Shown: one piece after another, positions 6,702 to 63,047 of the stretch
How the letters are laid out: every line of letters begins with the position of its first letter
Position numbering within the stretch: position 1 is the first letter of the stretch
Origin: Lentibacillus jeotgali
GTDB taxonomy: Bacteria > Bacillota > Bacilli > Bacillales > Amphibacillaceae
Direction of reading: 5' to 3'
DNA length: 64,000 bases
NCBI RefSeq assembly: GCF_000224785.1
Contig: NZ_AGAV01000005.1
Coordinates: forward strand, 1-64,000
Made by a program: the position numbers and the translations under genes
The notes under the pieces: model-generated
What the model was told of the DNA's origin: nothing
Databases searched by the model: none
Seen by the model: only the letters and a program-made list of their open reading frames with translations

Positions 6702-7514
6702 CTACCCGAAATAAATAGATGCCGGTGTTTGATAATCTAATGATTGATGAGGCCGTTCATGATTATAAAGGTTCATATAATCCCTTATATTGCTTCTTGC
6801 CGCTCTTGGTGACCCATAGTCCTTTAAATAGACTTCTTCGTACTTAAGGCTTCTCCAAAAGCGTTCAATCATGATATTATCCAATGCCCGCCCCCTTGAG
6901 TCCATACTAATTTGTACGGATGGATGCTCTTTTAAAAGATTAATGTATTTTGGGCTGGTAAAATGACTGCCTTGATCACTGTTAAATATTTCAGGTGTAC
7001 CGTGCGTGAATGCGTGTTGTACGGCATCCAGGACAAAGTCAATTGCCAACGTCTGATCCAGTTCCCAACTGATAATGTAACGGGAATACCAGTCGATAAT
7101 GGCCGTTAGATACATCCAGCTATTATGCAAGCGAATGTATGTAATATCAATGCTCCAAACCTGGTTGGGCCGAGTAATATTCACTCCTTTCAGCAGATAT
7201 GGATAAATACGGTGCTGTAGATTGCGTTTACTCAAATTAGGACCCGGATAAATGGCTTGTATACCCATTTCACGCATGTGACGCCGCACTCTTTTACGGT
7301 TGATATTCACTCCTTTTTTCTTTAGTATTTCAGCAATCCTGCGTGAACCAAAATACGGATATTTGGTATAAATCTCATCAATCCAATGTTTCATGGCAAC
7401 CTCTTCCGGTGACGGTTGAACAGGCTTATAGTAAAGGCTTGAACGATTGATTCCGAGTAGTTTAGCCTGCTGGGAGATAGGCAGTTCCGGATCTACCCAG
7501 TCCACCATCTCCAT
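6702..7514 (-). CDS. IS3-family transposase OrfB (DDE integrase)
   Basis: A 270-residue integrase-like catalytic subunit. The N-terminal HTH_21 region (GINRSSLYYKP, then YGSRRIAEILKKKG) is followed by the rve core, with the DDE triad visible as D in WSIDITYI, D in FNSDQGSHFTS, and E in NIMIERFWRSLKYEEVY. It lies downstream of orfA on the same strand. Its codon phase is +1 relative to orfA (equivalent to -2), not the -1 usual in this family; see orfA. The full conserved length suggests the protein itself is intact. Confidence 0.88.
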   Translation of the reverse strand: MEMVDWVDPELPISQQAKLLGINRSSLYYKPVQPSPEEVAMKHWIDEIYTKYPYFGSRRIAEILKKKGVNINRKRVRRHMREMGIQAIYPGPNLSKRNLQHRIYPYLLKGVNITRPNQVWSIDITYIRLHNSWMYLTAIIDWYSRYIISWELDQTLAIDFVLDAVQHAFTHGTPEIFNSDQGSHFTSPKYINLLKEHPSVQISMDSRGRALDNIMIERFWRSLKYEEVYLKDYGSPRAARSNIRDYMNLYNHERPHQSLDYQTPASIYFG

Positions 7515-7874: not shown

Positions 7875-9422
7875 ATGAATTTCTTAATTGAGGGCGATAA
7901 CCTAGCTTCTTTAGAAATATTAAAAAAAACTCATCGTGAAAAAATAGACTTAATTTATATAGATCCACCATACAATACAGGTAATAAGGATTTTACTTAT
8001 GATGATGATATAGTTGATAAAGATGATGGTTTTAAGCATAGTAAATGGATCTCATTTATGGAAAGACGACTAAAAATAGCTAATAACTTAATTTCGAAAG
8101 ATGGCGTAATGGTTATAAGTATTGGATATCAAGAGGTACATAATTTAGTACTTTTGTGTGAAGAAGTTTTTAGAGATAAACAAGTAGTAAGTGTAACTGT
8201 TCAGACTTCTGGTGGGAAACCTTCAGGAGGGTTTAATTATCTTCAAGAGTATCTGATTTTTGTCACTCCAGTAGATTTTGAACCAAATCCCGTTAAATTT
8301 GCAGGAGGAAATGATAGGAGCCCTTTTGAAGGATTAACATTAAGCACTTTTGATAAAACCCAACGACCAAATCAAACATATCCCATATTTATAGATGAAC
8401 AAACACATAACATAGTAGGAACCGGCCTTTCTCTTGCAGAAAGAGTGAAAAATGGTAGTTTTACTGAGGAATTAAAAGATTTTTCCTTCGATTACAGTGA
8501 AGCTCCTCCTGGAACAGTAGCTTTATGGCCGGTCAGTAGTAAAGGTGCGGAATGTGTATGGAGGCTAATTTCTGATCGCCTAATGGAAGATTGGCAAAAA
8601 GGATATATTAAAGTTAGTAAAAATAGAGTAAAAAAACATCCTAATAAATTCAGTGTTCAATATTTACCCGATGGTGTAATTAACAAAATTGAGAACGGTT
8701 CATTAGAAGTTATAGGAACTGAAAAAGAGGCACCTACATTGATATTCGGAGAAAATAAAACAGTTGGATCTGGTATTCCTACAATATGGTTAGAAAAAGA
8801 CTTCTTTACTAACAGGGGAACAAATTACTTAAAAGAAATATTTGGAGACAAACGATTTACTTATCCAAAACCTCTAGAATTCATCATAGAAGTGTTAAGA
8901 GCAACCTCTAACCCAAACAGCACAATTTTAGATTTCTTTGCCGGCTCAGGTACTACTGGACAAGCAGTTATGGAATTAAATAAAACTGATGAAGGGGGAA
9001 GGAATTTTATTCTTTGTACAAATAACCAGAACAATATTTGTAAAGAGGTTACTTATGAAAGATTAAAGAAAGTGAATGAAATCAATAAATACAACATGAG
9101 TCTTAAATACTTTGAGGTAAATTTCCTCCCAGTCAGGAATAGGTTTTACTATGAATACGCGCATGAACTTCTTAATAGTATTCGCGAATTGGTAGAGTTA
9201 GAGAATGCTATAAATTTCAGTGATGATAAGGAAAATTCTATTATCTTAACAGATAAAGAATTAGATGAATTTATTAAGGAAAGTGAATTATTAAAATTAA
9301 CTAAAACAATTTACCTTGGAAATGATGTTTTACCAGATCGTGAGCAAGAAGATATCTTAAAGCAAAATGATGTTGCGGTAAACATAATTCCAGACTATTA
9401 TTATAAGGATAACTGGGGGTAA
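7875..9422 (+). CDS. mod: Type III modification methyltransferase (Mod), 5' end at IS
   Basis: N6-adenine or N4-cytosine methyltransferase of the beta class, 515 residues: catalytic motif DPPYNTGN at about 33-40 comes first, and the SAM-binding FFAGSGTTGQAV block lies near residue 355. Together with the Res gene six bases downstream it forms a type III restriction-modification system that methylates host DNA. The ATG is only five bases from the IS end, with no ribosome binding site before it, and the protein begins directly at the conserved FLIEGDNL block. Many Mod proteins have extra N-terminal residues, so the 5' end and promoter were probably removed by the IS. Expression may depend on an IS promoter or be lost. 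Confidence 0.8.
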   Translation: MNFLIEGDNLASLEILKKTHREKIDLIYIDPPYNTGNKDFTYDDDIVDKDDGFKHSKWISFMERRLKIANNLISKDGVMVISIGYQEVHNLVLLCEEVFRDKQVVSVTVQTSGGKPSGGFNYLQEYLIFVTPVDFEPNPVKFAGGNDRSPFEGLTLSTFDKTQRPNQTYPIFIDEQTHNIVGTGLSLAERVKNGSFTEELKDFSFDYSEAPPGTVALWPVSSKGAECVWRLISDRLMEDWQKGYIKVSKNRVKKHPNKFSVQYLPDGVINKIENGSLEVIGTEKEAPTLIFGENKTVGSGIPTIWLEKDFFTNRGTNYLKEIFGDKRFTYPKPLEFIIEVLRATSNPNSTILDFFAGSGTTGQAVMELNKTDEGGRNFILCTNNQNNICKEVTYERLKKVNEINKYNMSLKYFEVNFLPVRNRFYYEYAHELLNSIRELVELENAINFSDDKENSIILTDKELDEFIKESELLKLTKTIYLGNDVLPDREQEDILKQNDVAVNIIPDYYYKDNWG

Positions 9423-9428
9423 GAGAGA

Positions 9429-11624
9429 ATGTTGGTTAGTTTTCAACTTAAGGCAGTTGGTGAATTGATGGAAAGTATAGAAGATGAAAGCAAAGAAGTT
9501 ATTTTTAAGAGTCCGACTGGATCTGGCAAGACGATAATGCTTTCACACTTTATGAGCGAATTTGGAAAGGGTAATTTTGGAAATGTCTTTGTATGGCTAA
9601 CTCCAGGTCGAGGCAATCTTGAAGAACAAAGTAAAGAGAAAATGGATAAGTATATTCCTAACAGTCAAACTAAGCTTTTGAGTGATGTAATGGCAGATGG
9701 ATTTAAAGAGAATGATTCTTGCTTTATTAATTGGGAAAAATTAACCAAAACAGGTAATACAGCATTAAGAGAAGGTGAAAAAGCGAACTTTCAAGAACAT
9801 ATAAATCGAGCACATAGTGATGGCCTTGAATTTATAATAATTGTTGATGAGTCACATCAAAACAACACCGTAAAAGCTAATGATATTTTAGAACTGTTTA
9901 ATCCTAAGAAGATTATCCGTACCTCTGCTACTCCAAATAAAACTACTAAATCAACGGTTGTTGAAGTTAGTGAAGAGGATGTAATTGCAGAAGGCTTAAT
10001 AAAGAAAATGCTTATAATCAATGAAGGTTTTGGTCGTTCAGTTAACATAGATAGTCAAGTTAATTATCTTCTTGATAGGGCGTTAGACAAACAAAAAGAA
10101 CTAAAATCTGCTCTTCAAGAAGAAGGGTCTATAGTTAATCCCCTGATCATTGTTCAACTTCCAAATAATAGCGAATGGATGCAGGGTGAAGTAGAACGAT
10201 ACTTATCAACAAAAGATATAACCTACGAAAATGGTTTGCTAGGTGTTTGGTTAAGTGAACGGAAACAAAATCTTGAAAACATCGAAAGGCTTGATGCTCA
10301 ACCTATTATAGTAATTATTAAGCAAGCAATAGCAACTGGCTGGGACTGTCCTAGATCGCAGATATTAGTAAAGTTAAGAGAAAATACTAGTGAGACATTT
10401 GAAATACAAACTATAGGAAGAATAAGAAGAATGCCTGAATTAAAGCATTATGGTAGTGATATTTTAGATTCCTGTTACCTATATACTTTCGATGAAAAAT
10501 TCACAGAAGGTGTTAAGTTCCATTTTGGAAAAGGTGCGTTAGATGCAGTTAGACTATTTTTGAAAAAGGATTATCGGAAAGTGAGTTTGACGAGTGAACA
10601 AAAGTCGGTTCTGGGAATTTCAACAGACCCTAAACAAGCTCTTGACACAATGGCTCTTTATTATCAAAAGGCATATGGAGCATCTACTAGAAAACAAGAA
10701 AACCAAACTCGATTACGGACACGGGGATACGCCTTTTCAAATAATATTGTTAAAAAAACGTATACCGGAGAAGTACATACTTTAACAGCAAAGGAATTTG
10801 AAAAATTGGATAGTGTGGATATGATTGAACAACTAAATACACACAAGCATGGGCGAGAGTATCATAATAGAGTAGGGTCTTTGGGGGTTAAATTGAGTTT
10901 ACCTTACGAGCATATGAATACTATTATACGACGACTGTTCGATAAAAATGTGAATTATCAACATAAAATACTGAACTTAGATACTAGGGATGTTTACGCT
11001 TTTGTTATAAATAACTTTAACAAATTAAAAGAGGATTTTCGCATTGCTATGTCAAGTCCGGAATATCAAAACCACCTTTCTTTACCAACGATTGCTGAGA
11101 AAGAGTTTCGTCTACCAAGAGAAATTCTATTTACTTATGATGGGAGCAATAGGTTACAGCAAGAATATGAAAGTAATGTTTATAAAGGTTACTTATCTTC
11201 AGCTGAATTCCGATCAGATTCAGAAAAATCGTTCGAAAAGTACTGTGAGGATTCAAATAATGTTGACTGGATTTATAAAAATGGGGATAAAGGAAATGAG
11301 TATTTTTCCATTGTGTATTTAGATAACTCTGGAAACCAAAGGACGTTTTACCCTGATTATGTTATTTCATCAAACGGAGAAATGTGGGTAATAGAAACCA
11401 AAGGTGGATTTAATAGAAGTGGTGAATCGGAAGATATAGATCAGTTTTCTCCTAAAAAATTTGAAATTTTGAAGAGATATTTGAATAAACATGATTTAAA
11501 AGGTGGTTTTGTAAGAAAAGACAAAAGTAATAATGAGTTATTTATTTGTATGGACAGTTACCATGACGATATCTCAAGTGAAGAATGGATGTTGTTAGAT
11601 GAAGCCTTGGAAAAACACTCTTGA
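9429..11624 (+). CDS. res: Type III restriction endonuclease subunit (Res)
   Basis: A 731-residue superfamily 2 helicase-nuclease. Walker A is FKSPTGSGKTIML at about 26-38, the DEAD-like box reads VDESHQ, a SAT-type motif appears as RTSATPNKT, and motif VI lies around QTIGRIRRMPE. The C-terminal PD-(D/E)xK nuclease shows YPDYVIS followed by MWVIETKGG near residues 640-660. The product cuts DNA when two unmethylated sites are found, in complex with Mod. It follows mod by six bases, so the two are one operon. It is shorter than the roughly 970-residue EcoP15I subunit but has all the domain landmarks. Confidence 0.85.
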   Translation: MLVSFQLKAVGELMESIEDESKEVIFKSPTGSGKTIMLSHFMSEFGKGNFGNVFVWLTPGRGNLEEQSKEKMDKYIPNSQTKLLSDVMADGFKENDSCFINWEKLTKTGNTALREGEKANFQEHINRAHSDGLEFIIIVDESHQNNTVKANDILELFNPKKIIRTSATPNKTTKSTVVEVSEEDVIAEGLIKKMLIINEGFGRSVNIDSQVNYLLDRALDKQKELKSALQEEGSIVNPLIIVQLPNNSEWMQGEVERYLSTKDITYENGLLGVWLSERKQNLENIERLDAQPIIVIIKQAIATGWDCPRSQILVKLRENTSETFEIQTIGRIRRMPELKHYGSDILDSCYLYTFDEKFTEGVKFHFGKGALDAVRLFLKKDYRKVSLTSEQKSVLGISTDPKQALDTMALYYQKAYGASTRKQENQTRLRTRGYAFSNNIVKKTYTGEVHTLTAKEFEKLDSVDMIEQLNTHKHGREYHNRVGSLGVKLSLPYEHMNTIIRRLFDKNVNYQHKILNLDTRDVYAFVINNFNKLKEDFRIAMSSPEYQNHLSLPTIAEKEFRLPREILFTYDGSNRLQQEYESNVYKGYLSSAEFRSDSEKSFEKYCEDSNNVDWIYKNGDKGNEYFSIVYLDNSGNQRTFYPDYVISSNGEMWVIETKGGFNRSGESEDIDQFSPKKFEILKRYLNKHDLKGGFVRKDKSNNELFICMDSYHDDISSEEWMLLDEALEKHS

Positions 11625-12053: not shown

Positions 12054-13943
12054 ATGAGATTAAAATCTGTGAGTATCCAAAATTATAGAACATTTGAGAA
12101 TGTCACAATTAACTTTTCTGATTATGGTGTCATGGTTGGTGCCAATAATTCGGGTAAAACTAGTGTTTTTTCTCTACTAGATAAAATTTTAAATCCCTTT
12201 AAAAGTCTTTATTATAGTGATTTTGAAGTCAGTGACTTCAGGAATTTAGACGAATCATTAGTAGTAGATATGGTATTTGATTATTTAAGTGAGGCACATT
12301 TAAGCGAGTTTAAATTTTACCTTAAACGAATTGAACTTGAAGAATCTCAGCCAGAAGAGGAAGGTATACAAATTCATTTAAGGTATATGTGTAAATATGA
12401 TACATCAACTGAGAGTTTTTCAAAAAAAATATTCATCATGGCAGAAGATGAAGAAATCCGTCTCAGCGAAAAACAAAGGAAACTATTTCCTTTTATATAT
12501 AGGGGAGCCCAAAAAGACAATAGAACAGAATTAAAAATGGGAAGAAATACTTTTCTTAATCGTTTGGTAGGCACTATAGATATAGATAGTAAAGCCAAGG
12601 AATCAATTCAAAAATTAATTGAAAAAGCTTCAGATATACTTTCTGATGAATTAAAGGAGGTTTCTAAATTAATAGAAAAAAATTCAAAGCATGTTATAGA
12701 TTATCCTGTGAACAATGAGGGAGAGGAAGAGGAAGAGGAAGAGGAAGAGGAAGAGCACAATATACGTTTTAATCTTTTGAATTTAGAATCAGATAAGCTT
12801 TTAAGTAATCTCGAAATATATATATTTGAAGCTTTTAAATCAGATTTCGAAGCTCTTACCAAACAGGGCTTAGGATATCAAAATGCCATTGTACTTGCAA
12901 TTTTTAAGAGCTTTGCAACATCTGCAATAAAAGGGAATACGATTTTAGCATTAGAAGAACCAGAATTGTTTCTTCCACCTCATTCACAGCGAGCATTGGC
13001 TAGAGATTTTAAGCATTTATCTGTAGATAACCAGATACTTATAGCTACACATTCCCCTTCTTTCATGTTGAATACAAACCCTAGGGATATTATTATTTTG
13101 AGAAAGTCATTTAGTGGTAGTACAACAGTATCTCAATTTAATCAAGATGCTACACCAAAGGAGCTAGAATGGTTTAGCAAGAGAGTGAATGCTATAAATG
13201 GAGAGGCATTTTTTTCAAATGTAGTATGTTTGGTAGAGGGTGAAACTGAAGAAGGGGCTCTAAATGAGTTATCTTATAAATTGGATACAGAAAACTCTAG
13301 TTTTTCATTTGATAAATATGGGGTTACTGTTTTAAATTGTGGAGGAAAAACTAAAATAAAAGAATTTAATCGCCTTGTAAAATATTTTTCATTACCAACT
13401 GTAGCTTTGATAGATTTTGATGCTGATAAAAATAACTCCGAATTTGATAGGGATGAAGGCGAAATAGATACTTTAAAAGGAATGGTTGACGAATTAATTC
13501 AATTTCCCAGGGAACCAGAGTGGGGTGATTTTGAAGGGGTTCTAACTAAAAAAGCTCCTATTATAAATTTGTTAAGAATATTAGACGATCTAGAAATAAA
13601 AAAGCTTTTCTGTGGACAGCTGGTGAAATTAAACAAAGTCTTAAGTTTTGGAGAAGACACTAGTTTTATAAGACAGGTATCATCACAGGAAAACATTAAT
13701 ATATATGATCTTGTAGAAGTTAAAGAACATATTAAAGGTATAGACCCGTCTTATGTAATGACATGGTTTCGAGCTGCGATTAAAGAAACCTTGAAAAAGG
13801 AAAAATCAGCAATTACAGGTAAAGTAGTTGCCTCTAATTTAAGTGGAGCTGATATTCCAGATGATTTTGCTAGGGTAATAAGAACTTGTATTTATATATC
13901 TAAGAATCGCCTTAAGCAGGAACAGGAGAATATCAATGAATGA
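12054..13943 (+). CDS. gajA: Gabija-like GajA: OLD-family ATPase/TOPRIM nuclease
   Basis: A 629-residue class 2 OLD-type protein. The N-terminal ABC-type ATPase has Walker A in VGANNSGKTS (29-37), Walker B in LALEEPELFLPP (about 300), and the H-loop in IATHSP (about 325). The C-terminal TOPRIM domain shows CLVEGETEEGAL near 394 (catalytic Glu) and LIDFDADKN near 452 (the DxD). GajA of Gabija is a sequence-specific nicking nuclease that is held off by nucleotides and released during phage replication. The gene overlaps a UvrD-like helicase by eight bases, the arrangement that defines Gabija. A run of eleven glutamates (residues 224-234) interrupts the ATPase. It is somewhat longer than the 578-residue B. 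cereus protein. An unrelated OLD-UvrD pair is possible. Confidence 0.8.
   Translation: MRLKSVSIQNYRTFENVTINFSDYGVMVGANNSGKTSVFSLLDKILNPFKSLYYSDFEVSDFRNLDESLVVDMVFDYLSEAHLSEFKFYLKRIELEESQPEEEGIQIHLRYMCKYDTSTESFSKKIFIMAEDEEIRLSEKQRKLFPFIYRGAQKDNRTELKMGRNTFLNRLVGTIDIDSKAKESIQKLIEKASDILSDELKEVSKLIEKNSKHVIDYPVNNEGEEEEEEEEEEEHNIRFNLLNLESDKLLSNLEIYIFEAFKSDFEALTKQGLGYQNAIVLAIFKSFATSAIKGNTILALEEPELFLPPHSQRALARDFKHLSVDNQILIATHSPSFMLNTNPRDIIILRKSFSGSTTVSQFNQDATPKELEWFSKRVNAINGEAFFSNVVCLVEGETEEGALNELSYKLDTENSSFSFDKYGVTVLNCGGKTKIKEFNRLVKYFSLPTVALIDFDADKNNSEFDRDEGEIDTLKGMVDELIQFPREPEWGDFEGVLTKKAPIINLLRILDDLEIKKLFCGQLVKLNKVLSFGEDTSFIRQVSSQENINIYDLVEVKEHIKGIDPSYVMTWFRAAIKETLKKEKSAITGKVVASNLSGADIPDDFARVIRTCIYISKNRLKQEQENINE
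12723..12752 (+). repeat. GAGGAA hexanucleotide repeat in gajA
   Basis: Five perfect tandem GAGGAA units plus one further GAG encode an uninterrupted run of eleven glutamates. Unit gain or loss would lengthen or shorten the acidic loop by two residues without changing frame. Confidence 0.9.
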
Positions 13944-15765
13944 CTTGAAAATTCAAGAAATCCTTGATTGGGAGTCTTCAGCAATGGTTTCAGCTGGTCC
14001 CGGAACAGGAAAAACTAAATTACTAATTAGAAAACTTGAAAAGTTTGAACAGGAAGGAAGACTTGACCCTTACGGTCAAAAAGTATTAGTTTTAACATTT
14101 AATAAAAAGGCTTCTTTAGAATTACAAACACGGATAGAGATGGCTGACATTGATGATCCAAGTTTTATTGAAGTTTTTACTTATCATGGGCTAGGACATA
14201 GGATTTTAAGTACTTATGGTCCTTTAATTGGTTTACCAAGTTCCTTAGTATTATTTCCACCTGATGAGAACAAAACAATAATCAAGGATTTAGAGACATA
14301 TTATGAAGCCTATTCATTTAATTTATTCTATCAAAAATACGTTTCGATTTACGAAGAGGAAGAAAAAGAACGCTTTGTACAAAAACACGCACCTGGGTAT
14401 GGAAAAGCTTTAGATATTTATTTACAACATAAAGTTGATAACGGTTACATAAATTATTCTGATTTAATATCAAAATGTATTGATTTATTGAAAAACAAAG
14501 AATGGTTAAGGAGAATTTTCCAAAACGCATATCCATTTATTTTAGTGGACGAATTTCAGGACACTGATCAAGTACAGTTCGAACTGCTTTCTTTAATTGG
14601 GAAAGGATCTAACGTACTTTCTGTAGCTGATGAAGATCAGGTTATTTATGAATTTAGAGGAGCGGAAGATCAAAATATTCAAAGGTTTATCGATGTATTT
14701 AATGCTAAAACATTTAATCTCTCTTATAACTATAGATCCACAAATAATATTGTCCAAGTTGCTAACTCATTAATAAGTTATAATGAGAATAGAAAGTCTA
14801 AAACCCCAATGCATACAAACAATAATGATGGCGAAAAAATTAAACTATACTTGAGTGAGGATGTTGATGAAGAAGTAAAAAAAATAAAAAGCTTGGTTTT
14901 ACATTGGATTGAAGAAGGGGAAGGTAATTCTGCAGTTCTTCTAAGAGAAAGAGCCAACATGTGTAGTCAGATTATCTCTCGCGTTTCAAAATCCCTAGAG
15001 GAAGCTAATATTCAATATTATAGATTAAAACAAAATATGATAATTAATGATAAAGTTGTTAAGTGGGTTATTTCAGCATTATCTTTCAAAGAAGATCCTA
15101 GTCTATATTCGCTTGCAGGTTTTGTTATATATCTACCTGGTATAGGTGAAAAAAGTGTACAAAAAATATATGATTATATTGAAACTCACGGAGATAACTC
15201 ATATAAGGATGTGGATATCTCAATATTTTTCACTAGGAAACAGTCGAATACTGTTAATAAAATATTAGATAAACTATTTGATTTAGAGGATATATTAGAC
15301 GTATTTGATTATGATTGCGAAAAAGTTTATGAAGGTAAAGAAAGTGATTTCAAAAATAAAAAGAGCTTTTATAGAAATATACGTTCACTATTATGGAAAG
15401 AATCAAAGGGATCTTCTAAAGCATTGGTAAGAAATTATGAGTATATGCTTGATATCAGTAATTTATTAAAATTAGCCAAAAATGAAGTGTTTATTGGCAC
15501 AATACACCAAGTTAAAGGATTACAATTTGATAACGTCATTATTGCGGGGGTAGCTGGTGGTTACTTTCCTAAAATAGGAAGAGGGTTAGAGAATTCAATT
15601 CAAGAAGAGCGACGTTTGTTTTATGTAGGCATTACTCGTGCACAAAAAAACTTATGTATTGCAGCGTCAAGGCAATGGTATAATCCTATTGAACAGAATG
15701 CTGAGAGGTTGAGTATATCTCCCTTTTTACGTGAACTTGACAAAGAACATGTAACTATCGAATAA
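13936..15765 (+). CDS. gajB: Gabija-like GajB: UvrD/Rep-family helicase
   Basis: A 609-residue superfamily 1 helicase with all main motifs: Walker A in SAGPGTGKTKLL (17-28), motif Ia around VLTFNKKAS, Walker B in VDEFQDTDQVQ, motif III in ADEDQVIYEFRGA, motif IV in NYRSTNNIV, motif V in HQVKGLQFDNVI, and motif VI in LFYVGITRAQKNL. In Gabija, GajB pairs with GajA in a large complex and is thought to sense DNA ends or consume nucleotides. Its start overlaps the gajA stop by eight bases, so the two are translationally coupled. It is longer than the 494-residue reference GajB. A hairpin at 15927 closes the operon. Confidence 0.82.
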   Translation: MNDLKIQEILDWESSAMVSAGPGTGKTKLLIRKLEKFEQEGRLDPYGQKVLVLTFNKKASLELQTRIEMADIDDPSFIEVFTYHGLGHRILSTYGPLIGLPSSLVLFPPDENKTIIKDLETYYEAYSFNLFYQKYVSIYEEEEKERFVQKHAPGYGKALDIYLQHKVDNGYINYSDLISKCIDLLKNKEWLRRIFQNAYPFILVDEFQDTDQVQFELLSLIGKGSNVLSVADEDQVIYEFRGAEDQNIQRFIDVFNAKTFNLSYNYRSTNNIVQVANSLISYNENRKSKTPMHTNNNDGEKIKLYLSEDVDEEVKKIKSLVLHWIEEGEGNSAVLLRERANMCSQIISRVSKSLEEANIQYYRLKQNMIINDKVVKWVISALSFKEDPSLYSLAGFVIYLPGIGEKSVQKIYDYIETHGDNSYKDVDISIFFTRKQSNTVNKILDKLFDLEDILDVFDYDCEKVYEGKESDFKNKKSFYRNIRSLLWKESKGSSKALVRNYEYMLDISNLLKLAKNEVFIGTIHQVKGLQFDNVIIAGVAGGYFPKIGRGLENSIQEERRLFYVGITRAQKNLCIAASRQWYNPIEQNAERLSISPFLRELDKEHVTIE

Positions 15766-15963: not shown

Positions 15964-16146
15964 GGGTTTCTAATAATACATAGGGATAAAAATAATGTAT
16001 TAACGAAACGCTAAATAAACTTATCAAGTACGGGCGGCATGATGTAACCATGCTTTAGCGTCCATTAATGTAATGATTATTGCTGCTTTCACGGCTTGAA
16101 ACTTAAATCTTTACAGAGTCTGCATAATATATGCATTGCAAATGAA

Positions 16147-16184
16147 AAAGAAAGCCAATCAGGTGGGGTGGATTGGCTTTCTTT
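16147..16184 (-). terminator. Terminator of the SGNH hydrolase gene
   Basis: A perfect 14-base stem (AAAGAAAGCCAATC and complement) with a ten-base loop lies nine bases after the stop of the minus-strand gene. On that strand the stem is followed by further T residues. Confidence 0.8.
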
Positions 16185-16192
16185 CATGTAAT

Positions 16193-17554
16193 TCATCTGT
16201 TCATGGAATCATTCATCGTTGGCAATTTAATAGTTTGATTCGGATATATTAAATTTGGGTTCTGAATCTGATCTCGGTTAGCTTGGTATATAGCTCGTAC
16301 CTCCTCTGTAATCTGCTTATTGGTTTGTTCCCCGGAGTAATTTTCTTTTGAGATGGTCCATAGGTTGTCACCTGCTTTTACTGTATACGACGATTCTTTC
16401 GGTTTACCTCGGTTTTTCACCAGCTCAGTGGTAATTTCTAAAGCCTTGCCGGTGTCAATACTGCTATCGCCAAAAGTGTAGACTGTGGTGTATTCTGACG
16501 GAATAGTACCATCAGTAATCGCTTTAGCAAAATTACTAACTTCACCGTTATAGACCTTCTCGAAAACACCATCGTCTGTCGTAATGTTGGAATTTAATAG
16601 ATACGTAGCCATATGTTTTTGGCTTCTGTTGGATAAATGGTATTCGTCATAAGTATAGAAATCATCAGGGTTCCAGCCCGCTGCTTTAGGGTTATAATAT
16701 TTGCTGTTGGTTGAGTAATTGCCATAACCACCATAGATGTCTTCTGCATTGTTCGTAGGGAAAATATTGCTGTTGTCTTCAGAGACTAAGGCATAACCAT
16801 AGGCTGGTACCCAGTCGGAAATCATATAAAAGCCCATGCTTTTATATCCGAATTTTTCAAAGCCCTGTTCTTCAATGTTGGCACGCAATCGCTGATTATG
16901 TCCGTAAATAACCTCTACATCGTTAGGAGTGGTATCCAAAGCAAGATAATCTTCAATCTTTTGAACAACCTGTTGGTTTCTTATGTCATTAAAACTTGTC
17001 AAATCAGTACGCTGATCTACAAAGCGATTCGGTAGCAATATATATTTGGCGCCAGCTTCTACAAGATTCTGGACCATTTTAAGGGCAAAGTCACTAGATA
17101 ATTTTGCCGCACGTTCAGCCCCTAGTTCTTCAACGGCATAAGTATCGTTCCCGCCGACGCTAATAATATAGAGTGCTTCAGGATCTGCTTTTTCATTCAT
17201 ATCCTCTAGAAATCTTTCGGTTTGTTGTACGCCGCCCCATCCTTTTAGCCAAGAGGACCAATTGGAACGTTCATCCGCAGCACCTTTAGTACCGGTCATG
17301 ACACCAGTAAAAGCTCCACCGACTGCATAATTTGTCAAATTATCATAATCACCAGCCAACTCATTCGCAATGTACTCAGAGAAGACCCGGCCGTTAGAAT
17401 AGCGACCTTTCCAGTAGTGCTCAGTGTCAGCTTTTATATACATTTTATCAGCAGGATTAAAGCCTTCTGCTGGCTGTGCTGCCATTACTTCTGGGGGTAT
17501 GGCCATAATAGAAAAAAGTGTAAAAATTAAGGTCAATAAAGACATTTTCTTCAT
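16193..17554 (-). CDS. Secreted SGNH/GDSL hydrolase with LysM, circularly permuted order
   Basis: A 453-residue exported esterase/lipase-like protein. A signal peptide (1-26, ending MAA) is followed by an SGNH fold whose blocks are out of order. The stretch that normally comes after the nucleophile is at the N-terminus (GRYSNGRVFSEY, 51-61; block II NYAVGGA, 75-81). Block III SVGGND is at 132-137 and block V DEYH at 303-306. Block I, with the nucleophile serine, VYTFGDSSIDTG, comes last at 358-369. A LysM domain (about 389-448, SYTVKAGDNLWTI to YPNQTIKLP) should anchor the enzyme to peptidoglycan. The start has GGAGG seven bases upstream. The gene is monocistronic. The substrate is unknown; thermolabile-hemolysin-type lipases share the NGRV/WVEY pattern. 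Confidence 0.8.
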   Translation of the reverse strand: MKKMSLLTLIFTLFSIMAIPPEVMAAQPAEGFNPADKMYIKADTEHYWKGRYSNGRVFSEYIANELAGDYDNLTNYAVGGAFTGVMTGTKGAADERSNWSSWLKGWGGVQQTERFLEDMNEKADPEALYIISVGGNDTYAVEELGAERAAKLSSDFALKMVQNLVEAGAKYILLPNRFVDQRTDLTSFNDIRNQQVVQKIEDYLALDTTPNDVEVIYGHNQRLRANIEEQGFEKFGYKSMGFYMISDWVPAYGYALVSEDNSNIFPTNNAEDIYGGYGNYSTNSKYYNPKAAGWNPDDFYTYDEYHLSNRSQKHMATYLLNSNITTDDGVFEKVYNGEVSNFAKAITDGTIPSEYTTVYTFGDSSIDTGKALEITTELVKNRGKPKESSYTVKAGDNLWTISKENYSGEQTNKQITEEVRAIYQANRDQIQNPNLIYPNQTIKLPTMNDSMNR

Positions 17555-20267: not shown

Positions 20268-20858
20268 TTATTCCATTTTTGACAGCTCTTCCACCATAAG
20301 ATCATAATTCATTGCCCCCATTGCAAAGAATTGTATACGGCCATTTGAATCAATCATATAAGAAGTCGGATATGCCTGAACCTGATAAGTCGTTGCAACG
20401 TCAGAGTTTGCGTCCATTGGCACCGGGAAGGTCATCTCAAATTCATTTACAAAGTTTCTGACCCCTTCTTCACCCTCTTCTGTTGCAGTTAAATTCACTG
20501 CTAAAATTTCAACATCTTTTTCATTATAAAGCTTTTGGAAATCCGGTATTTCCGCTCTGCATGGCGGACACCAGGTTGCCCAAAAGTTAACAATGACACG
20601 CTCCCCTCTATAGTCAGACAGTCGTACAGTTTCCCCCTCAAGTGTGGTCAGTTCAAAGTCAGGGGCTATTTGACCAACAGAAAGTCCGACTTCATTAGAT
20701 TCCTCTGCTCCACCTTCGTCGTTATCGGGCGGTGGCGACGTAATCTTATTTCCGCCCGTATCTTCTTCAACAGACGTTTCATCGGATGAGCTAGTAAAGT
20801 CGTATACGGCCCAACCGAACATTACTGTTACCAACACAATAAGTATTGCCTTTTTCAT
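20268..20858 (-). CDS. ResA/TlpA-like thiol-disulfide oxidoreductase
   Basis: A 196-residue membrane-anchored thioredoxin-fold protein. It has an N-terminal signal anchor (about 4-20), a low-complexity acidic and proline linker (25-55), then an AhpC-TSA/Redoxin domain starting VGQIAPDFELTTLEG with the active site NFWATWCPPC and the cis-proline region YPTSYMID. It acts outside the cytoplasmic membrane, reducing disulfides, for example in apocytochromes c. A paralogue of about 75-80 percent visual identity lies at 61675. The gene sits between a broken membrane/CcdA locus and the response regulator. Confidence 0.85.
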   Translation of the reverse strand: MKKAILIVLVTVMFGWAVYDFTSSSDETSVEEDTGGNKITSPPPDNDEGGAEESNEVGLSVGQIAPDFELTTLEGETVRLSDYRGERVIVNFWATWCPPCRAEIPDFQKLYNEKDVEILAVNLTATEEGEEGVRNFVNEFEMTFPVPMDANSDVATTYQVQAYPTSYMIDSNGRIQFFAMGAMNYDLMVEELSKME

Positions 20859-20874
20859 TGATTATCCCTCCGTA

Positions 20875-21017
20875 TTATCCCAATTTTGATAACCATGTAT
20901 CTTGTACCAATTCAAGCAGAAATCCTGTGATGCGCGACATGAAACCGAAAAACAAGACTAATCCCATAATTATCATAATCGCCCCGCCTATTTTCATGAT
21001 GACTTGGCTGTGCAATT
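20875..21017 (-). pseudogene. CcdA 3' remnant
   Basis: On the minus strand, the frame ending at 20875 reads HSQVIMKIGGAIMIIMG and continues to LVQDTWLSKLG. This matches the last 47 residues of the intact CcdA at 63047-63805 almost position by position. The rest of the gene is missing: a deletion joined this tail to the upstream membrane-protein gene at about 21010-21017. Confidence 0.8.
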
Positions 21018-21559
21018 GACTGAGTAAATGCTATTAAAATCATTCCGAAAGACCATACGGTTAACATGACAATAATCAGTAAACTTGTGGTTATCCGCTC
21101 ATGTATGACGAGAAATAAGACTAGCAGAATACATGATAAAACTAAATAGCCAAAAGCGTATGTATTATCGTTCCAAACAAGTTGAATAAACTCATATATT
21201 AATGATGCTGTTAAAAATACTGACAAAAAAGATTCGGTGAATGCGGGCACATCTATTTGTCTCCGTGTAGACTTGTACAAAATTACTATGGCGCTAAATA
21301 ATACTGCCAGGTAAAATGCATCCGAATTACTTGGATAGGCCAATATTGCTAAAGGATCTTGTATGAATACAGAGAAATTCAATATAATTTTTCCGAGCCA
21401 AATAAAGATAATGAAATTAATAAGCTGTGAAGTCAAATTCTCGACTTGTTTTTTCTTTTGCTGCTTCGGCAGATTACTCATTATATAGAAAGAAATAAAT
21501 CCAATAGTTAGACTTAATACAATTATGCTAACTGAGAACAATTTGCTTGTTATCACCAT
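20912..21559 (-). pseudogene. Multi-pass membrane protein fused by deletion to CcdA tail
   Basis: The first 185 or so residues are a paralogue of the 215-residue membrane protein at 62400-63047: same start MVITSKL, same YPSNSDAFYLAV block, same WNDNTYAFGYL. From about residue 186 the reading frame enters CcdA sequence out of frame and ends in a meaningless tail (SHHENRRGDYDNYG...). The last transmembrane helix is therefore lost together with most of ccdA. Before the break the protein had about six hydrophobic helices. Its family is unknown to me. It is probably inactive, though a truncated product could still be made. Confidence 0.75.
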
Positions 21560-61674: not shown

Positions 61675-62271
61675 ATGAAAAAAGCGATTCTTGTTCTAGT
61701 TGTCGTAGTCATGTTTGGATGGGCTGTTTATGATTTTTCAAGTTCGACCGATGAAACGTCCGTTGAAGAAAATAATAGTTCGGGCGGTGCCAAAATCACA
61801 TCACCACCGCCTGCCGGGGGAGATAGTCAGGTCGAGGAGTCCGATGAAGTAGGGACTTCTGTTGGGCAAATTGCTCCCGACTTTAAGTTAAGGACACTTG
61901 AAGGGGAAACGGTGCGCTTGTCTGATTATCGTGGTGAACGTGTCATCGTCAACTTTTGGGCTACATGGTGTCCGCCATGCAGAGCTGAAATACCCGACCT
62001 TCAAAAGCTGTATGACAAGAAGGATGTGGAGATTTTAGCAGTTGATTTGACAGATACGGAAGAAAGCATAGAGGATGTCAGGGCGTTTGCGAAAGAATAT
62101 GACATGACATTCCCGGTCCTGATGGATGAAAATTCTGATGTTGCTGATACGTATCAGGTAATGGCATATCCGACTTCCTATATGATTGATTCCAGTGGTC
62201 ATGTACAATACATTGCTATGGGCGCAATGAATTATGACCTTATGGTTCAGGAATTGGAAAAGATGGAATAG
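61675..62271 (+). CDS. ResA/TlpA-like thiol-disulfide oxidoreductase (paralogue 2)
   Basis: A 198-residue signal-anchored thioredoxin-fold protein with the same plan as the one at 20268: anchor (4-20), a linker rich in S, G and P (25-58), then VGQIAPDFKLRTLEGETVRLSDYRG, the active site NFWATWCPPCRAEIP and YPTSYMIDSSG. It reduces disulfides outside the membrane using electrons from CcdA, which is encoded two genes downstream. It has its own upstream motif and a terminator at 62282. Confidence 0.87.
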   Translation: MKKAILVLVVVVMFGWAVYDFSSSTDETSVEENNSSGGAKITSPPPAGGDSQVEESDEVGTSVGQIAPDFKLRTLEGETVRLSDYRGERVIVNFWATWCPPCRAEIPDLQKLYDKKDVEILAVDLTDTEESIEDVRAFAKEYDMTFPVLMDENSDVADTYQVMAYPTSYMIDSSGHVQYIAMGAMNYDLMVQELEKME

Positions 62272-62281
62272 CTTCTGATAA

Positions 62282-62319
62282 GCAATGGAGGGTTTTGCCA
62301 CACCTTCATTGCCTTTTTC
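62282..62319 (+). terminator. Terminator after the ResA-like gene
   Basis: GCAATGGAGG and CCTTCATTGC pair with one G-T and are followed by CTTTTTC. Confidence 0.75.
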
Positions 62320-62336
62320 TATTCAGAGAAAGCATA

Positions 62337-62357
62337 TTCATCAAATTTTCATATTGG
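62337..62357 (+). promoter_or_regulatory. Conserved TTCAT direct-repeat motif
   Basis: TTCAT at 62337 and 62348, 11 bases apart, in the same 21-base block as at 61504. It stands 43 bases before the membrane-protein start, the right distance for an activator site; TATTATAT (62362-62369) could serve as -10. Confidence 0.6.
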
Positions 62358-62399
62358 CAATGTATTATATGGTACGAGTATGAATGGAGGAATCATTTC

Positions 62400-63047
62400 G
62401 TGGTGATAGCAAATAAATTAATGTCAATCGGGATAATGGTATTCAGTATTGGACTCGGGTTTATTATCCTGATTTTTTTGGGTGATTTGTCAAAGGAACA
62501 ACGAAAGGACTACCTGGAAGAAATGATTTCACAGCTCACTAACCTAATTATTTTTGTCTGGGCAGGAAAAATTATATTGAATTTTCCCGTTTTCATGGAG
62601 GACCCACTGTCCATCCTGGCTTATCCCAGTGACTCGGATTCATTTTATCTGGCTGTCGTTTTCAGTGCGGTGTTGTTTTTTTATAAGTCTTCAAAATGGC
62701 AATTGGATACACTGTTGTTCCTGAAATCTTTCCTGCTTGTATTACTGACGGCGTCATTTGCATATGAATTTATTCAATACATATGGAACGATAATCAATT
62801 TGCCTTCGGGTATCTAATTCTACTGACCATTCTCTTATTATTATTTATTTTTATGCAAAATGGTGTTGCATCAAGTACGTCCATCCTTGTTATATTAACT
62901 GTTTGGTTCCTTGGCATTCTATTATTATTGTTTATTCAGCCGTTTGTGACTGTATTTGGCTATATGATCACACCATGGTTTCTGATGCTTGTTTTCGTCG
63001 TCGGTTTTTCATATATTCTATATTTGAAAAGAAAGAGGGGATCGTAA
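62400..63047 (+). CDS. Unidentified multi-pass membrane protein beside ccdA
   Basis: A 215-residue protein with about seven hydrophobic helices, read from the GTG at 62400 (nine bases after GGAGG). The paralogous gene at 21559 also starts M-V-I. Conserved between the two are LIIFVWAGKIILNFPVF, EDPLSILAYPSDSDSFYLA and WNDNQFAFGYL. I recognise no family. Its stop overlaps the ccdA start (TAATG), so the proteins are made together. A membrane partner of CcdA or ResA in moving electrons or assembling the complex is plausible. Confidence 0.8.
   Translation: MVIANKLMSIGIMVFSIGLGFIILIFLGDLSKEQRKDYLEEMISQLTNLIIFVWAGKIILNFPVFMEDPLSILAYPSDSDSFYLAVVFSAVLFFYKSSKWQLDTLLFLKSFLLVLLTASFAYEFIQYIWNDNQFAFGYLILLTILLLLFIFMQNGVASSTSILVILTVWFLGILLLLFIQPFVTVFGYMITPWFLMLVFVVGFSYILYLKRKRGS

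Follow-up and report, generated by a model that had tools for sequence, protein, structure and literature searches.

Natural circular permutations of catalytic folds are uncommon. Permuted members have nevertheless been described inside the SGNH/GDSL superfamily (PMC9487903), so that, going by the available part of that source, a non-canonical block order does not bar a protein from SGNH membership. In the available text on the AlgX/AlgJ family, which acts in alginate O-acetylation and is likewise a natural circularly permuted SGNH fold (PMC9487903, PMC4148444), the order is H-S-G-N, a Tyr takes the place of the Asn, and the motifs are GTSYS and DxH. PatB1 of Bacillus cereus, from the DHHW family, is described in the accessible portions of PMC9487903 and PMC5697884 as a permuted SGNH enzyme of a Gram-positive bacterium, acting on wall polysaccharide, with the order H-S-G-N and the motifs KDS and TDHHW. 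Other permutations are the topic of PMC12419801, PMC2848206 and PMC5408684, to the extent that their accessible parts go.

The protein described here comes from a window of 64,000 nucleotides of the Lentibacillus jeotgali contig NZ_AGAV01000005.1, and differs from both groups. Its chain is cut between blocks I and II, whereas that of AlgX/AlgJ is cut between blocks III and V, and it has the order G-N-H-S and a DEYH block V where PatB1 has H-S-G-N and TDHHW. By the family definitions in the available part of PMC9487903, this order and this block V place it outside AlgX/AlgJ and outside DHHW, and neither family was among its Pfam matches up to E 10. We did not come across the G-N-H-S order in full-text searches on permutation together with SGNH/GDSL/LysM, which cover few subscription papers. 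Among PDB entries, the SGNH proteins that matched best in sequence were ChoE from Pseudomonas aeruginosa (6uqv), PlaA (8a24) and the J15 GDSL esterase (5xtu); in ChoE the GDS block lies at chain residues 16-18, before the remaining blocks, whereas in the window protein GDS comes last.

The putatively secreted product is encoded on the minus strand at 16193-17554, as are all parts of it given below, in a frame that is open from ATG to stop (453 aa). It starts with a signal peptide judged by eye (residues 1-26, 17477-17554, cleavage site approximate). The part that lies after block I in conventional relatives begins with GRYSNG (residues 50-55, 17390-17407), followed by NYAVGGA of block II (residues 75-81, 17312-17332), GGND of block III (residues 134-137, 17144-17155) and DEYH of block V (residues 303-306, 16637-16648). 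A stretch of about residues 321-357 (16484-16594), recognised by alignment, may serve as a linker from the old C-terminus to block I, its limits being approximate. The block I segment itself (residues 357-384, 16403-16486) contains TFGDSSID within VYTFGDSSIDTG (residues 358-369), with the codon of the predicted nucleophile S364 at 16463-16465, and a LysM domain (residues 390-445, 16220-16387; Pfam PF01476, 34.5 bits against a curated cut-off of 20.9) closes the chain. The block order is thus II, III, V, I, LysM. The original prediction, which gave no strand, had placed the blocks at these same residues in an open frame, and was right on both counts. Past the stop codon, a terminator-like hairpin with a T-rich 3' side was found on the same strand (16146-16185, fold -19 kcal/mol, z -6.67), which was absent from the list of a pattern scan permitting loops of 3-8.

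Pfam Lipase_GDSL (PF00657) matched residues 46-316 of the window protein, corresponding to profile positions 14-205 of 208, with a score of 31.6 bits (cut-off 23.6). As the match stops at residue 316 and omits block I, the nucleophile would be missing from the SGNH domain reported by a scanner. By alignment, S364, N136, D303 and H306 correspond to ChoE S38, N147, D285 and H288, taking into account an offset of 20 between alignment and mutant numbering, worked out by arithmetic; those ChoE residues are altered in the solved mutants S38A, N147A, D285N and H288N, according to the PDB entry titles. Against ChoE, the whole native protein scored 41.8 bits and the core with block I restored to the front 48.3 bits, the latter match being continuous across block I, and the best single stretch went from 34.7 to 42.1 bits.

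For comparison with conventional relatives, plasmid sequences gave 22 records at E up to 1, nine of which were fetched, eight read and seven used in a profile. Block I was ahead of block II in all eight. The one left out of the profile, a Paraburkholderia frame (L083), has GTS replacing GDS, and a block V could not be located there. The seven profiled SGNH/GDSL proteins (L075-L081), from plasmids of cyanobacteria and proteobacteria, have GR(F/Y/L)(S/T)NG and GxND in common with the window protein, to which they are 24-39% identical over the matched part, and carry block I N-terminally; DxxH is present in six of them, the frame of L078 stopping before it, and the open frame of L076 starts at GDS.

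On the native window core, the seven-relative profile matched in two abutting pieces of swapped order, profile 25-202 with core residues 16-201 and profile 2-24 with core residues 331-353, the split falling at profile 24/25. Placing block I in front resulted in a single continuous match and raised the best-domain score from 85.4 to 100.9 bits (+15.5); in the other 11 distinct cores the gain ranged from 5.3 (L009) to 13.3 bits (L005). None of 500 shuffled segments reached the restored best-domain score in any of the 12 sequences, with a margin of just 0.6 bits in L009 (67.8 against a best shuffle of 67.2), and these tests are not independent because the 12 homologues are related. The C-terminal segment is thus homologous to block I, above chance in every homologue. 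Full-sequence scores rose by 4.3-7.1 bits over the native order in all 12, a smaller rise because both pieces already count towards the score of the native order. In a rotation scan, a cut at core residue 325 was within 0.1 bit of the maximum in 12/12, and with a cut at 346, beyond GDS, the score fell sharply, to no more than 0.2 bits from native. In most sequences the plateau extended back to residue 214-304, with the cut lying before about core residue 331; being flat, it defines where the cut lies on the block I side, but not where the linker starts.

Other profiles agreed in part. Profile-profile comparison gave 163.3 for the native order (template columns 26-259) and 184.7 for the rotated one (columns 2-259). 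Against Pfam Lipase_GDSL the core scored 29.7 bits, the restored core 37.0, one reversed-segment control 29.2 and the whole native protein 31.6. NCBIfam EstP rose from 33.9 bits for the core to 37.3 on restoration, the whole native protein already scoring 37.6, and no gain was obtained with Pfam Lipase_GDSL_2 (21.0 to 20.6), NCBIfam PlaA (44.0 to 43.6) or PlaC (31.0 to 28.9). A short block I profile placed the segment correctly in seven of the eight sequences scanned (6.5-12.6 bits), L009 being below zero bits. The sequence evidence hence supports the permutation originally proposed: the profile splits at one boundary, and scores are raised by rotation and not by shuffled or reversed segments. 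In the SGNH topology, a loop on the side of the active site leads from block I to the helix starting at GRxSNG. From GDS to GRxSNG this stretch is 24 to 34 residues long in the seven conventional relatives, and its variable length makes it a site at which new termini should be tolerated.

The gene was found in 13 genomes from two families, giving 12 distinct cores since two genomes of one genus have an identical core; the other 11 cores are 62-87% identical to that of the window. All 12 keep the G-N-H-S order in place of the canonical S-G-N-H of the superfamily, and S364, G80, N136, D303 and H306 are invariant throughout, so the search for homologues with the same block order that had been proposed at the outset was successful. 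The superfamily blocks I (GDS), II (G), III (N) and V (DxxH) are all present, with GAS for GDS in L009. In the 12 distinct homologues the Lipase_GDSL match begins between profile positions 12 and 18, in no case at 1, and passes the cut-off in 11, L009 falling below it with 22.3 bits. The frame is open in 13/13 genomes, and dN/dS was 0.035-0.127 in eight of the nine pairs examined (out of 66 possible), synonymous change being saturated in the ninth. No GxS occurs in the 21-23 residues preceding GRYSNG in any of the 12 cores, five of which have no serine there at all; a hidden N-terminal nucleophile, named beforehand as a way in which the prediction could fail, is therefore absent.

Taken as a whole, we assign a probability of about 85% to the reading that the gene encodes a wall-anchored, secreted SGNH hydrolase of the Lipase_GDSL kind, with ChoE as its nearest PDB relative, which would have arisen by natural circular permutation. 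A linker of about 35 residues would join the old N- and C-termini, the chain having been reopened between block I and block II. The C-terminal segment is predicted to pack as strand beta-1 and the nucleophile turn of the same domain, so that S364, H306 and D303, together with N136 and G80, would make the usual active site. Low confidence characterised the AlphaFold2 models, both for the full protein with an 8-row alignment (mean pLDDT 46.6) and for the core with a 12-row alignment (mean pLDDT 44.9), with the block I region below 50 in each; a conventional sequence from a viral contig, as a 13th row, was left out of the folding alignment, its C-terminus being misaligned. With the low-pLDDT core model, Foldseek ranked ChoE, the J15 esterase and PlaA first, a weak hint at most, none of them passing E 1e-3, and query-normalised TM values were 0.24-0.27 in the first ten rows (0.24-0.25 for PlaA).

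The G-N-H-S order and a linker of this length would equally permit a domain-swapped oligomer, in which block I at the C-terminus of one chain supplies the missing part of its neighbour's active site, and sequence cannot tell the two arrangements apart. The linker, however, seems long enough for the fold to close within one chain, and we consider a swap improbable. Slightly less credible still is a catalytically dead wall protein that has kept the SGNH shell for binding. L009, with GASGDD as block I and ILND as block III, is the member that fits such a role, against which stand the invariant catalytic S, G, N, D and H of all 12 cores and the low dN/dS values. A decoy GDS motif lying by chance beside LysM, a rearranged pseudogene or an assembly error was dropped as having a negligible probability: a GDS-like motif is short by itself, but the shuffles, the frames open in 13 genomes with cores this similar, the low dN/dS and the lack of a conventional block I upstream all stand against it, in line with the earlier statement that the gene is not a rearranged pseudogene.

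Under the permuted-hydrolase reading, the new C-terminus would bear the wall anchor, LysM or, in one relative, a sortase signal. The LysM cut-off was passed in 10 of the 12 distinct proteins; L042 scored below it (17.1 bits) and L009 had no match. The C-terminus of L009 instead consists of LPATA, a hydrophobic stretch and RKR, matching Gram_pos_anchor just above the cut-off of 20 (20.1 bits), and sortase matches were present in the L009 genome (three) as well as in that of the window (two). The anchor is thus exchangeable, one relative having a sortase anchor in place of LysM. As the cut falls between block I and GRxSNG, a LysM tether could plausibly keep the active site at the wall. The exported, wall-held enzyme would hydrolyse an ester with S364 as nucleophile, and we propose that it is an extracellular esterase or lipase; its similarity to ChoE and PlaA is a faint pointer to an ester of choline or of a lysophospholipid as substrate.

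The gene is patchily distributed. In the window's own genus it was present in 2/12 genomes. In its family, 36/159 genomes gave a match, eight of them across the enzyme and 28 over the C-terminal LysM part only, and a core profile matched 8/156. The order sample yielded 1/397 (E up to 1e-10), the class sample 2/398 and the phylum sample 1/264 genomes, and in the second family the gene was found in 4/200 genomes, with 5/68 in a genus of that family, Sporosarcina; these samples overlap, and each contains the genome on which it is centred. The record of Sporosarcina sp. P13 (L001) holds a locus letter-for-letter identical to that of G1075. Two single-protein scans for wider relatives retrieved none. 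With the full protein, tblastn matched one plasmid record and two phage records, from residue 365 onward only and mainly over LysM, and among viral contigs no relative of the permuted profile was found, one conventional protein being detected there. In Bacilli, a profile built from four conventional proteins revealed no conventional close relative: the 2/299 genomes that matched at E up to 0.001 both carry the permuted gene. A Lipase_GDSL search of 40 relatives also yielded loci that encode other SGNH proteins; of the reading frames in the loci examined, the permuted profile matched copies of the permuted gene only (E up to 10).

Gene neighbourhoods were compared for 11 loci, the window and ten others, with G1043 and G1075 left out. 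Most flanking genes are common to L089, L091 and L096, which belong to one genus, and the two Sporosarcina loci L094 and L095 have two flanking genes on one side in common. Across the 11 neighbourhoods no other gene cluster had more than four members, which gives no indication that the operon is conserved. The patchy distribution and the differing neighbourhoods suggest horizontal spread. Circular permutation usually arises when a gene is duplicated in tandem and the outer parts are then lost, and no such intermediate of the permuted gene was seen.

As to the surroundings, the permuted gene is flanked by a Gabija-like pair (12054-15765, plus strand; best PADLOC scores 151.1 bits for GajA and 224.6 bits for GajB) and, on the opposite side, by genes that read by eye as a two-component system. 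A type III restriction-modification pair (7875-11624, plus strand; methyltransferase 277.6 bits, a weaker restriction subunit 65.2 bits) forms with the Gabija-like pair what looks like a small defence island, bordered by an ORF resembling, by eye, an IS3-type transposase (6702-7514, minus strand). Elsewhere in the window, two genes, one thioredoxin-like (by eye) and one for a membrane protein, are each present twice in opposite orientation (20268-21559, minus; 61675-63047, plus), with protein identities of 77% and 55% between the copies. In L040 (3-1235, minus strand), a long protein with many GYDxxGYN-like repeats is encoded next to the permuted copy of G728 (Sporosarcina).

For the SGNH superfamily, the permuted enzymes described so far share, in the available parts of the sources, a different cut point. 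We somewhat favour the view that the G-N-H-S proteins represent a second, independent SGNH permutation, one that opens the loop on the nucleophile side and whose new terminus takes exchangeable wall anchors, so that the active site would be tethered. With the nucleophile block at the opposite end of the polypeptide to blocks II and III, the question arises whether an SGNH enzyme can fold and catalyse with a serine strand that arrives late, and the permuted protein would be a natural counterpart to the conventional enzymes on which such tolerance may be tested.
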